Below are positions 16,856 through 19,880 of a stretch of DNA of 64,000 nt, one piece after another. Below the pieces are notes generated by a model. It worked only from the letters and a program-made list of their open reading frames with translations. It was not told the DNA's origin and ran no database searches. Position 1 is the stretch's first letter. Every line of letters begins with the position of its first letter. Source of the stretch: Clostridium sp. K13 (GTDB lineage: Bacteria > Bacillota > Clostridia > Clostridiales > Clostridiaceae); contig NZ_JAASHM010000014.1 of assembly GCF_019734195.1 (NCBI RefSeq), positions 1 to 64,000 on the forward strand, written 5' to 3'. Both the position numbers and the translations under genes were made by a program.

Positions 16856-17911
16856 TTATACATATATTGGTCTTCTAATCTTAAAATCCTTTATTAAAGA
16901 TACAGAATGTGTTGAATTAGCATGAATAAAGAACTTTTTAGGTTTATTCCTTTCCATTTCTGTTTTAAATAATTGGGTCCATTTATACCAAAATAGGTAG
17001 TTTGTTAGGAACTTGGTTGAAACACCATTAAACTTTCTTATCCATCTTTTTAAGCTACTATGAAAAGCATTGACTCTTTGAATATTATAAATATCCACAG
17101 TTTTTCTCCCGCCCCTAATTTGATGTAATTCAAAATTATGTTGAGCCGCAAATGGGATATAACTCCTATGTTTATCAGTACATAAAATAGAATTTTCTTC
17201 AACAACCTCTGATAAAGCCCTATTTATATCAGTATAGTTAGGTCTGCCATCACATATTAAACCAGTATATATATTTCCTAATCTATCTACACCACATAAT
17301 ACACAGGCAAATTCCTTTGATATACCTCTTGTATTTATTTCTTTACCACGCTTTCTTGCTTCCCTTGGCATAGTAAAATTAGAACTTTTACTATGATTCC
17401 CCTTATAGCTAAGAGCAAAGTAGGTTTCATCGAGTTCAATAACACCTCCAAGAGAACCATAGCCAACAAACTTTCTAATAGCGTCTATAATTTTATGTCT
17501 CCAAAAGAAAGCTGTTGCAATATTAATCTCAACAATTTCGGCACATTGCCTAATAGTGTTACCATTTATCATACATTGAGCATATAGTAGCCATTTATCT
17601 AATCCCTTTTTACTACTTGAAACTGGGGATTTAGAAAAATCATTGAAAGTTTTTTTGCACTCTGGATTTTGGCATTTATACCTTTGTTTAACGCCATTCT
17701 TACCATGATATTTTCCATACTTAGATATTTTATCATGATTGCAAAAAGGACAGCACTTCCCCTTGTTAAATCTATTTTCAGCGATTTCTTCATCTATAGA
17801 GTTAGTTATTCCATTTGACATCAATACAGTCTTTAAAAAATCAAATACCTTCTCTTGCTCATATGTATTTAATTGTGAAACTTGCTGAATAACATTATTA
17901 ACTCTTGGCAT
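16856..17911 (-). CDS. IS1595-family (ISXO2-like) transposase
   Basis: A 351-residue transposase. An N-terminal helical region (1-45) is followed by a zinc ribbon (CPFCNHDKISKYG with CQNPECKKTF, about 54-87), a helix-turn-helix (about 100-135) and an RNase-H-like DDE core: GVIELDETYFA, CTDKHRSY and the VNAFHSSLKRWI helix of the ISXO2 group. The gene looks intact and begins 6 bases after AGGAGG. It lies near the right end of an element with intact ends, so the element may still be mobile. Confidence 0.88.
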   Translation of the reverse strand: MPRVNNVIQQVSQLNTYEQEKVFDFLKTVLMSNGITNSIDEEIAENRFNKGKCCPFCNHDKISKYGKYHGKNGVKQRYKCQNPECKKTFNDFSKSPVSSSKKGLDKWLLYAQCMINGNTIRQCAEIVEINIATAFFWRHKIIDAIRKFVGYGSLGGVIELDETYFALSYKGNHSKSSNFTMPREARKRGKEINTRGISKEFACVLCGVDRLGNIYTGLICDGRPNYTDINRALSEVVEENSILCTDKHRSYIPFAAQHNFELHQIRGGRKTVDIYNIQRVNAFHSSLKRWIRKFNGVSTKFLTNYLFWYKWTQLFKTEMERNKPKKFFIHANSTHSVSLIKDFKIRRPIYV

Positions 17912-17971
17912 AAAAAACCTCCTAAATAGTAGTTATATTATATATTATAACCATATTTATAGAGGTTAATC

Positions 17972-18000
17972 AAATTTCAACAGTTTATTAAAACAAAGCC
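17972..18000 (-). repeat. Right terminal inverted repeat (IRR)
   Basis: The 29-bp inverted copy of 15412-15440, ending AAAACAAAGCC. Directly followed by the second AATATAAT duplication. Confidence 0.88.
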
Positions 18001-18008
18001 AATATAAT
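18001..18008. repeat. Right target-site duplication of the IS1595-type element
   Basis: AATATAAT, identical to 15404-15411. Confidence 0.85.
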
Positions 18009-18050
18009 GTAATAAGAGTTTTTTAGTAACTAAATTAATCAAAAAAATAA

Positions 18051-18079
18051 TTGAAAGTTTAACAATTTAAAAGTATAAT
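18051..18079 (+). promoter_or_regulatory. hisS: Promoter of the hisS leader transcript
   Basis: TTGAAA (18051-18056), a 17-base spacer and TATAAT (18074-18079) form a near-consensus promoter. The start site near 18086 lies about 22 bases before the leader-peptide ATG. It is 42 bases past the IS target duplication. Confidence 0.75.
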
Positions 18080-18107
18080 AATATTAATTTATTTTTGGAG
18101 GAAAATT

Positions 18108-18158
18108 ATGAGAGCACTTAATATAAGTAAGCAAAATAAAATACATCATCATTACTAG
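18108..18158 (+). CDS. Histidine leader peptide (attenuator peptide)
   Basis: A 16-residue ORF, MRALNISKQNKIHHHY, with GGAGG 6-7 bases before its ATG. Three consecutive CAT His codons (18144-18152) lie one codon before the Tyr and the TAG stop. Such peptides sense charged tRNA-His by ribosome stalling in enterobacterial his operons (established). Alternative hairpins and a terminator follow, and the next gene is a histidyl-tRNA synthetase, so the logic fits. The gene is too short for routine callers. Confidence 0.8.
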   Translation: MRALNISKQNKIHHHY

Positions 18159-18284
18159 AGACTTGGTCTGCAAAACTACAGATACAAGTCTATCAGCGTA
18201 GGCTTGTATCTCTGGTAATGATAAGTTAAGTGAAATCATAATTTATTTTAAGCCATGTGGGATATATGCCTACATGGCTTTTTT
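18159..18284 (+). promoter_or_regulatory. His attenuator: alternative hairpins of the hisS leader
   Basis: Mutually exclusive stems can be drawn. B:C pairs AGACTTGGTCTG (18159-18170) with CAGATACAAGTCT (about 18179-18191). C:D pairs 18180-18192 with 18199-18211 (13 bp, strong). D:E pairs GGCTT (18201-18205) plus neighbours with the left terminator arm AAGCC (18250-18254). E:F is the terminator. A stall on the His codons leaves B free, so B:C and D:E form and transcription continues. A ribosome at the stop covers B, so C:D and the terminator form. The His-codon region (18148-18160) can also pair with 18210-18222. Confidence 0.7.
18250..18284 (+). terminator. Attenuator terminator upstream of hisS
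   Basis: Arms AAGCCATGTGGG (18250-18261) and CCTACATGGCTT (18269-18280) form a 12-bp stem with one G-T pair, followed by a T6 run. It sits 105 bases before the hisS start and in the middle of the leader transcript. Confidence 0.8.
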
Positions 18285-18389
18285 GTATATAAATTTAATT
18301 ATTGGCTATGGAAGTGTCAGTTGTTATATTTTAGGAAGTTTTAAAACATCTAACCATCAAATAAAATTATTATAGGAGTGATTAATAAG

Positions 18390-19685
18390 ATGAAAAAAAA
18401 TATTATAAAACCAAGTATATTGCCAGGATTCATGGAATTATTACCAGAGGAGCAACAGATATTTAATGATATAGTATCAAAAATAACAAAAGTATATGAG
18501 GATAATGGATGCTTAGCAATAGATACGCCAATAATAGAAAAAGCAGAGGTACTACTTGCAAAAAGTGGAGGTGAAACAGAAAAACAAGTTTATAGTTTCC
18601 AAAAAGGAAAAAATAATTTAGCCTTAAGATTTGATTTAACAGTACCATTTGCAAGGTATGTAGCTCAATATTATAATGATCTAGTTTTTCCATTTAAAAG
18701 ATATCAAATAGGAAAAGTATATAGAGGGGAAAGAAATCAAAAGGGAAGATATAGAGAATTTTATCAATGTGATATTGATGTTATTGGAAAAGGACAACTA
18801 AGTATAGATAATGATGCTTGGGTTATAAGTTTAGCATCTAAGGCTTTCAAATCAATAGGATTAACTAATTATAGATTTCAAATAAGTAATAGAAAAATAC
18901 TAAAAGGTATATTAAGTGAATTAAAAATAGAAAATGTTAATGAGGTAATGATACTAATTGATAAGTATGACAAGGTTGGTAAAGATATATTTAATGAAGA
19001 AATAAATAAAATTATAGGAATTGAGAAAGGAAATTATCTTAGTAAAATAATAAATATTAGTGGTTCAACTGAAGAAGTATTAGAAAAACTTTCTAACCTT
19101 GATGTTGAAAATGATTATTTTATTGAAGGAGTAAATGAGCTAAAGAAAGTTAGTTTAATATTAGGTGTATTAGGTGTAGAGAAAAATGAATTTGAAATCA
19201 ATTTAAAAATTATAAGAGGATTAGATTATTATACAGGAACGGTATTTGAAACAATATTAGTTGAAAATGAAAGTTATGGATCAATTTGTTCTGGTGGAAG
19301 ATATGATAATTTAGCAGAAAATTATAGTAATAATATATTACCAGGAGTAGGTATATCTATAGGAATTACTAGGCTATTTTTTGTATTAAAAGAAATTGGA
19401 TTTATAAATAAATATAATATAGGAAATAAGTTGGATTATTTAATATTACAAATTGGAGATACAATAGAATATTCTGGTGAAGTATTAAGTTATTTGCAAA
19501 GTAAGGGATATAAGGTAAGTTTATATTTTGAGGAGAATTCATTAAAGAAAAAAATGAATTATGCTAATAAAATAGGAGTTAATAATGTAATTTTAATTGG
19601 AGAAGAGGAAGTTAGAGAGAATAAAATTAAGATTAAGAATATGAATTTAGGAGAAACTAAGATTATTAATTACCTAGAACTATAA
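18390..19685 (+). CDS. hisS: Histidyl-tRNA synthetase
   Basis: A 431-residue class II synthetase. Motif 2 (KVYRGERNQKGRYREFYQCD), the His-specific RGLDYYTGTVFE and motif 3 (PGVGISIGITRLF) are present, plus a C-terminal anticodon-binding domain (about 335-431), so it is an enzyme and not HisZ. The REFYQCDIDVIG stretch is closer to the archaeal/eukaryal-type HisRS than to the common bacterial form, so it may be a second, acquired HisRS. The ATG lies 11 bases after AGGAG. A GTG inside that site is rejected. Its expression is predicted to be controlled by the His leader peptide. Confidence 0.87.
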   Translation: MKKNIIKPSILPGFMELLPEEQQIFNDIVSKITKVYEDNGCLAIDTPIIEKAEVLLAKSGGETEKQVYSFQKGKNNLALRFDLTVPFARYVAQYYNDLVFPFKRYQIGKVYRGERNQKGRYREFYQCDIDVIGKGQLSIDNDAWVISLASKAFKSIGLTNYRFQISNRKILKGILSELKIENVNEVMILIDKYDKVGKDIFNEEINKIIGIEKGNYLSKIINISGSTEEVLEKLSNLDVENDYFIEGVNELKKVSLILGVLGVEKNEFEINLKIIRGLDYYTGTVFETILVENESYGSICSGGRYDNLAENYSNNILPGVGISIGITRLFFVLKEIGFINKYNIGNKLDYLILQIGDTIEYSGEVLSYLQSKGYKVSLYFEENSLKKKMNYANKIGVNNVILIGEEEVRENKIKIKNMNLGETKIINYLEL

Positions 19686-19817: not shown

Positions 19818-19880
19818 TTGCAAAACGTTTACATAGGGTGTATTATATAGTTAACCGATTCAGTAAACCGATTCAGTAAA
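19818..19880 (+). promoter_or_regulatory. Ribose operon promoter, LacI/CcpA-type operator and tandem 13-bp repeat
   Basis: TTGCAA (19818-19823), 17 bases and TATTAT (19841-19846) form the promoter. The sequence TTGCAAAACGTTTACAT (19818-19834), with an AAACGTTT core palindrome, overlaps the -35 box; it fits both a CcpA cre site and a LacI-type RbsR operator. Downstream, CCGATTCAGTAAA is tandemly repeated at 19855-19867 and 19868-19880, and a hairpin GATTC/GAATC can form at 19870-19885. The repeats may be further regulatory sites in the 5' leader. Confidence 0.6.

Follow-up and report, generated by a model that had tools for sequence, protein, structure and literature searches.

The window analysed here, a stretch of 64,000 nucleotides from the genome of Clostridium sp. 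K13, carries a second gene for histidyl-tRNA synthetase (hisS2). Its product matched the TIGR00442 profile with 379.7 bits (cut-off 286.75), and both the HisRS core and the anticodon-binding domain are present. By their appearance, the same genome also holds a canonical-looking hisS of 415 aa, 32% identical to hisS2, and a hisZ-like gene with a hisG-like gene behind it. Upstream of hisS2 lie a putative promoter, a mini-ORF of 16 codons whose product ends in HHHY, a series of complementary segments and an intrinsic terminator; hisS2 starts about 100 nt beyond the end of the terminator (Table 1). The promoter was located by a consensus scan over 2 kb that returned 24 promoter-like sites, where 16 were expected. 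The region from 18086 to 18300 folds at -65.3 kcal/mol, far more stably than its shuffles (-37.4 kcal/mol, sd 4.28; z -6.5).

Two neighbouring features may be recorded here. A gene that looks like a transposase gene (16856-17911, minus strand) runs divergently just upstream of the leader region. On the other side, two 13-nt direct repeats (AGTWAACCGATTC, 19849-19874), possibly repressor sites, stand ahead of ribokinase-like and sugar ABC transporter-like genes.

Table 1 Features of the hisS2 leader region, in window coordinates
Feature	Position	Strand	Basis or pairing partner
Putative sigma70-like promoter, TTGAAA-17-TATAAT	18051..18079	+	consensus scan, 11/12 matches
Shine-Dalgarno sequence of leader ORF, GGAGG	18097..18101	+	sequence
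Leader ORF, MRALNISKQNKIHHHY and stop	18108..18158	+	sequence; His codons 18144-18152, stop 18156-18158
Segment 1	18159..18170	+	directly after leader stop codon; pairs with segment 2
Segment 2	18179..18192	+	pairs with segment 1 or 3
Segment 3	18198..18212	+	pairs with segment 2 (terminator state) or 4 (antiterminator)
Segment 3b	18210..18222	+	pairs with His-codon/stop region 18148-18160
Linker	18225..18244	+	predicted fold: pairs with leader start region 18103-18122
Intrinsic terminator and U tract	18250..18286	+	fold (hairpin 18250-18280); 98.5% of alignment cells paired
Segment 4	18259..18273	+	3' arm of the terminator with its loop; pairs with segment 3 in the antiterminator
Second hisS (hisS2), 431 aa	18390..19685	+	TIGR00442 and HisRS domains

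Conservation of the His leader

At an E-value of up to 1e-100, hisS2 was found in 36 of 68 genomes of the genus. An SD-like stretch was required when leaders were called in these relatives, and 31 of the 36 loci keep an SD-led leader of 14-17 codons with HHH, HYH or HHCH at its end; five loci (L029 and L217-L220) showed no such leader in the roughly 330 nt upstream. The N-terminal part of the peptide varies across the genus, and the His run is constant. The His-codon ORF that the first-pass annotation had placed before hisS is thus confirmed by the sequence and by its relatives. One genome (locus L074) has an intact HHHY leader in front of what remains of hisS2, an N-terminal part that ends at an early stop; an oxidoreductase-like gene comes next. 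Here the leader has outlived its gene. A survey of hisS in named genomes, in which the matches listed were mostly distant hisS genes, gave His-run leaders at L097-L099 (65-74% identical) and at the distant L107, among the 80 loci listed.

A model built from the hisS2 leaders was also run against 391 genomes of the class, with eight candidates scored per genome, and matched in six of them. K13 itself and one other genome (G067) contributed hisS2 leaders. Two matches, L285 (HHHH) and L286 (HHHHH), are leaders ahead of hisZ-like genes, a third (L283) is an HHH leader, and L284 has no His-run leader. His leaders on the same RNA core stand before hisZ-like genes at L078 (HHH), L285 and L286, and before an amino-acid ABC transporter at L207. 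A hisG-like gene comes next in L078 and L285, and all three hisZ-like loci are probably his operons. At L207, in a genome (G014) that has a hisS2 leader as well, the leader and core precede genes for a family-3 substrate-binding protein and a permease-like protein, likely those of a histidine ABC transporter.

T-boxes are frequent on synthetase genes of Firmicutes, and the K13 genome has 25 T-box matches, 21 above and 4 below the cut-off, which makes a T-box missed by the models worth weighing at hisS2. None of these matches, however, lies at the three hisS-type genes. The Rfam scan of the whole window gave no family at its gathering score, and the six matches that appeared in 17900-18420 at E up to 5 include neither a T-box (RF00230) nor the enterobacterial His_leader (RF00514). 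At 17 hisS2 loci and at L002 and L003 no T-box reached the gathering score either, the only match being a purine riboswitch in L020. An overlooked T-box is extremely unlikely, and the original remark that none is seen here holds.

Alternative pairings in the leader RNA

To the leader we fitted an alignment of 33 distinct sequences, which includes L074 and the transporter leader L207 and leaves out the copies L097, L098 and L215. Two competing hairpins follow the mini-ORF, 18159-18170:18179-18191 (1:2) and 18180-18192:18199-18211 (2:3). In 1:2, 98.3% of cells are paired; double changes occur at four pairs (nine cells), and no shuffle of 500 reached its covariation, while its pair types are ordinary (117/500 shuffles as good). 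In 2:3, 95.8% of cells are paired and covariation is weak (double-change pairs, 115/500 shuffles; score, 1/500). The terminator has 19 double-change cells. The two competing stems and the strong terminator had already been drawn in the first-pass annotation (18159-18191, 18180-18211) and are present as drawn. Its antiterminator, a short D:E pairing of 18201-18205 with 18250-18254, did not survive: it shows no covariation, its score was reached by 478/500 shuffles, and we dropped it. The antiterminator that comparison supports is 18198-18212:18259-18273 (3:4), with 85.5% of cells paired, five double-change pairs (3/500 shuffles) and a covariation score reached by none of 500.

Two further pairings involve the mini-ORF itself. 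The region of the His codons and stop codon pairs with segment 3b (18148-18160:18210-18222) in 89.5% of cells, with 20 double-change cells (0/500 shuffles); by double-change pairs (219/500) and pair types (315/500) this pairing was no better than shuffles. When partners were exchanged between leaders, native partners gave better duplex energies than swapped ones for leader start:linker, His codons:3b, 1:2, 2:3 and 3:4 (0 to 19 of 2000 permutations). Three unrelated control pairings showed no advantage of native over swapped partners; a fourth showed a small native excess (0 to 1/2000), and its segment overlaps the linker by eight bases. The pairing of the leader start region with the linker is kept by this measure (native -13.65, swapped -10.66 kcal/mol; 0/2000 permutations) and could shut off leader translation in the terminated RNA.

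Folding energies and a proposed mechanism

Taken singly, the named helices have energies of -12.7 (1:2), -16.4 (2:3) and -16.5 kcal/mol (3:4), and the His-codon pairing extends 2:3 to -24.4 kcal/mol. For RNA ending at 18273, the named helices alone give -29.2 kcal/mol for 1:2 with 3:4 and -20.3 for 2:3 with the partial terminator; counting the His-codon pairing brings the latter to -28.3, nearly equal to the former. At full length, 2:3 with the terminator (-35.0 kcal/mol, named helices) beats 1:2 with 3:4 (-30.4). With 1:2 enforced, the optimal fold is the same as with 3:4 enforced. Equilibrium folding in six cases, one without a ribosome and five with a ribosome at different positions, always returned 2:3 and the terminator, with no switch. 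With a ribosome of assumed footprint on the first His codon and all pairings allowed, 2:3 folds lay 1.7 to 5.7 kcal/mol below 1:2 folds for RNAs ending from 18212 to 18280. Since equilibrium and constrained folds both favour 2:3, the switch would have to be kinetic, with 1:2 forming first and then persisting. A first hairpin that has to form early and persist is usual for attenuators. Comparison and energies together describe an antiterminator and a terminator that exclude each other, with the equilibrium folds on the side of the terminator.

Very probably, then, the K13 hisS2 leader is a ribosome-mediated transcription attenuator. The ORF, its Shine-Dalgarno sequence and codons, the alternative pairings, the terminator, their conservation and the agreement between codons and gene can be read from the sequence and its relatives; from these we infer that the leader is translated, how much RNA the ribosome covers, that it stalls and in which direction the system responds. 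The transcript would start near 18086. When charged tRNA-His is plentiful, the ribosome would reach the stop codon, which adjoins segment 1, and cover that segment; 2:3 would then pair and the terminator would form before hisS2. A shortage of charged tRNA-His would stall the ribosome 12 to 6 nt earlier, at the His codons, leaving segment 1 free and breaking the His-codon:3b pairing. In this stalled state 1:2 would pair and release segment 3, which could then pair with segment 4, and with no terminator formed hisS2 would be transcribed. Without a ribosome, leader start:linker and His-codon:3b would lengthen 2:3, so that the default state would be off. The arrangement suggests a role for the second HisRS in these clostridia, that of an inducible spare for times when charging of tRNA-His fails; K13 probably turns the gene on when a ribosome stalls at the three His codons.

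Relationship to the trpB motif

The RNA part of the leader is very probably a divergent relative of Rfam family RF04312, the trpB motif, which would be the same device with other codons. RF04312, the one Rfam signal of note, matched the window at 18175-18289 with 40.1 bits (E 1.7e-4), below its gathering score of 59; relatives of the hisS2 leader score up to 53.8 bits, and a hisZ leader 57.6. Elsewhere in the K13 genome there are five weaker matches (24-32 bits); at the two inspected for a leader (L042, L043) no fitting one is present. P1, the antiterminator shoulder and the terminator come in the same order in the window and in RF04312, and at a similar distance from the stop codon of the mini-ORF: the gap between stop codon and motif is 16 nt in the window and ranges from 15 to 28 nt across 24 His leaders and from 5 to 30 nt across 76 Trp leaders.

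The trpB motif (SRC-39-1) was presented in 2024 as a strong orphan riboswitch candidate with more than 900 representatives in Firmicutes and Fusobacteria, seen most often upstream of an uncharacterised ABC transporter; the authors allowed that it might be a classic attenuator (PMC11109978). In 2015 the similar gbs1262 element of Streptococcus agalactiae had been described as a new riboswitch, and RNA-seq revealed short and long transcripts, with premature termination (PMC4448216). Because of the genes that they share, we infer that the gbs1262 element is RF04312.

Under strict filters, and with nine candidates scored per genome, RF04312 matched in two of 398 genomes of the phylum, and the further searches were therefore centred on the best one (G311). 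In all we collected 156 matches, two of them overlapping: 50 from 67 genomes of the genus (E up to 0.01), 27 more from 194 genomes of the family (E up to 1e-4), 19 from 29 genomes of G311's family (E up to 1e-5) and a further 60 from 295 genomes across its order (E up to 1e-6). A leader was defined as an SD-led ORF of 8-40 codons with its end close to the motif. To pass the codon rule, its last ten residues had to include at least three His, Phe, Tyr or Leu, or four Phe plus Tyr, or two Trp.

An SD-led mini-ORF accompanies 149 of the 156 matches (89/96 in the first sets, 60/60 in the order-level set), and 129 pass the codon rule (82/96 and 47/60). Among controls drawn from the first 96 loci, the rule was passed by 87 of 2807 random positions (3.1%) and 42 of 4800 shuffles. 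All 60 order-level leaders have at least one Trp among their last ten residues. A fitting leader is missing at nine of the 156 matches, namely L200 (a second, overlapping match), L069, L203, L072, L204, L205, L190, L191 and, as a doubtful case, L073.

These leaders bear on the published reading, by which RF04312 and the similar gbs1262 element are metabolite-binding riboswitches and the mini-ORF is incidental. That reading has been proposed in two papers (PMC11109978; PMC4448216) and agrees with the strong conservation of P1 (AGAUAC/GUAUCU). Yet every match above the cut-off in this collection, 54 of 54 and all from one order, has a Trp leader, with Trp within the last ten residues; two or more Trp are present in 14/14 and 34/40 of them. 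In the weaker matches the codons switch to His, Phe, Tyr or Leu along with the gene. Moreover, segment 1, which the Rfam model does not cover, pairs with the 5' arm of P1, and in each of the Trp, His, Leu and Phe/Tyr groups the native partners do better than swapped ones (0/2000 in each). The 3:4 pairing is stronger than with letter-shuffled partners in all four groups; native exceeds swapped for Trp (1/2000) and His (0/2000), and the difference is not clear for Leu (238/2000) and Phe/Tyr (158/2000). We consider a riboswitch very unlikely.

The link was also followed from the His side. Run on 57 of 79 loci of the Trp order, the model built from hisS2 leaders alone matched the motif in 22 (E up to 10), in four of them at E up to 0.01; the best score was 35.2 bits, 12 scored above the best control, and five further matches fell elsewhere or on the other strand. 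In 47 control loci the best score was 19.5 bits, at L107, which itself has a His leader, and the next 18.8. Of 36 loci from the family and the genus, covering every codon type, the same model matched 34 at the motif and on the right strand (the exceptions being L055 and L081), in a total of 73 matches. In joining the His and Trp branches, the shared architecture and the intermediates weigh more than any one score.

One could also suppose that the leader peptide works by translation coupling, or that the leader yields a stable small RNA, rather than by termination. The leader start region can indeed pair with the linker, and a leader-derived trpL sRNA is known elsewhere (cited in PMC8546594). 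But the terminator and U tract are conserved with covariation and end well before hisS2, and the gbs1262 RNA-seq (PMC4448216) speaks of premature termination, provided that this element is RF04312. We rate these possibilities together as very improbable. A codon-swappable leader-peptide attenuator, and not a riboswitch, is most likely what the trpB motif represents.

Leader codons and downstream genes

We compared the codons of each leader with the gene behind it. Genes were classed by a looser sequence-signature classification, widened after a first look, with representatives checked; the leader sequences are related to one another, and the counts below are not independent events. The 76 Trp leaders precede TrpX-like genes (70), trpB (3) and genes outside the signature classes (3). 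By profile, the product at L183 is TrpX (NF041285, 449 bits, cut-off 390) and that at L178 is TrpB (612, cut-off 392). Another trpB locus, L255, was binned as Leu through a second called ORF, its other ORF being a Trp leader. Of the 24 His leaders, 22 stand before hisS2 (the L074 remnant included), one before a hisZ-like gene (L078; its product reaches 218 bits where the hisZ cut-off is 272) and one before an amino-acid ABC transporter. Sodium symporters follow 12 of 18 Phe leaders, the others preceding BrnQ-like carriers (3) and TrpY-like permeases (3); they also follow 14 of 16 Tyr leaders (one BrnQ-like, one doubtful, L073) and all eight Leu leaders. Five leaders are mixed Phe/Tyr, and 8 of the 156 matches are entered as having no fitting leader. 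Synonymous codons are used in His, Phe, Tyr and Leu leaders; the 24 His leaders matched by RF04312 have CAT 64 and CAC 12 times. This points to the peptide rather than the nucleotides as what matters.

Two small groups of transporters were seen on the way. Phe leaders stand ahead of a TrpY-like ABC permease at L082, L094 and L211, which suggests a phenylalanine version of the TrpXYZ transporter. BrnQ-like 'branched-chain' carriers follow Phe or Tyr leaders at L051, L053, L054, L065, L081 and L087, and these carriers may have an aromatic substrate.

Discussion

The same RNA switch that in K13 carries His codons is found in related bacteria with Trp, Phe, Tyr or Leu codons, where it is listed as a riboswitch candidate. 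With good confidence we read the trpB motif as the RNA part of an old attenuator, ribosome-mediated and modular, in which the amino-acid specificity has changed by exchange of mini-ORF codons (Trp, His, Phe, Tyr or Leu). In this reading it is used in Bacillota where T-boxes would be expected, and tells the likely substrate of many transporters. For an orphan riboswitch class this is a testable answer: no ligand would have to be sought, because the sensor would be the translating ribosome. It would also describe a Gram-positive family of leader-peptide attenuators in which one RNA core is kept and the codons are swapped, as T-boxes swap their specifier codons. Substrates can be predicted from it as well: sets of sodium symporters would carry Phe, Tyr or Leu, some BrnQ-like carriers aromatic amino acids, a TrpXYZ-like ABC transporter Phe, and one polar amino-acid ABC transporter His. 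His leaders in Firmicutes had already been predicted, and the main gain from the K13 element is this family reading of the trpB motif. In the literature searched we found no account of the motif as a leader-peptide attenuator, codon-swappable or otherwise, and no His leader before a clostridial hisS. On the latter point the first-pass annotation, which knew of no such arrangement, stands; there are precedents before hisS* and hisZ in bacilli and before some clostridial his operons, described below.

Comparison with known systems

The leader of the enterobacterial his operon couples translation to termination through a run of His codons. The window shares the His-codon run and, in our proposal, the coupling. 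The first-pass annotation had gone further and drawn the K13 leader exactly as in proteobacterial his operons. Its core, His leader-peptide attenuation before a hisS without a T-box, is well supported by comparison; the exact likeness is not, since RF00514 finds no match, the antiterminator pairs differently and the RNA resembles RF04312, an element of Bacillota.

Closer in gene content are the His leaders predicted in bacilli before hisS* and hisZ (Naville and Gautheret 2010, PMC2965389). As in the window, a second hisS or a hisZ is preceded there by a mini-ORF containing a His-codon run and by a terminator; the host group differs, and the likeness is drawn from ORF and terminator. His attenuators have also been predicted before his operons of C. 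difficile relatives, Erysipelotrichales and the B. cereus group (Ashniev 2022, PMC9413887). They too belong to Firmicutes and combine 3-5 His codons with a terminator and an antiterminator, but they precede biosynthetic operons, and the main text of that paper does not mention hisS. In Rhodobacterales a leader-peptide attenuator has been predicted for another synthetase gene, cysS (uORFC-8-2, PMC8632094); there the amino acid is Cys and the hosts are alphaproteobacteria, and the likeness is drawn from the architecture.

The nearest relative at the level of RNA is RF04312 with gbs1262. It shares with the window the P1 hairpin AGAUAC/GUAUCU, an antiterminator in the right shoulder of P1, the terminator and a similar distance to the stop codon of the mini-ORF. 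The window differs in having His instead of Trp codons, in its score below the cut-off and in an antiterminator that uses the loop and 3' arm of the terminator.
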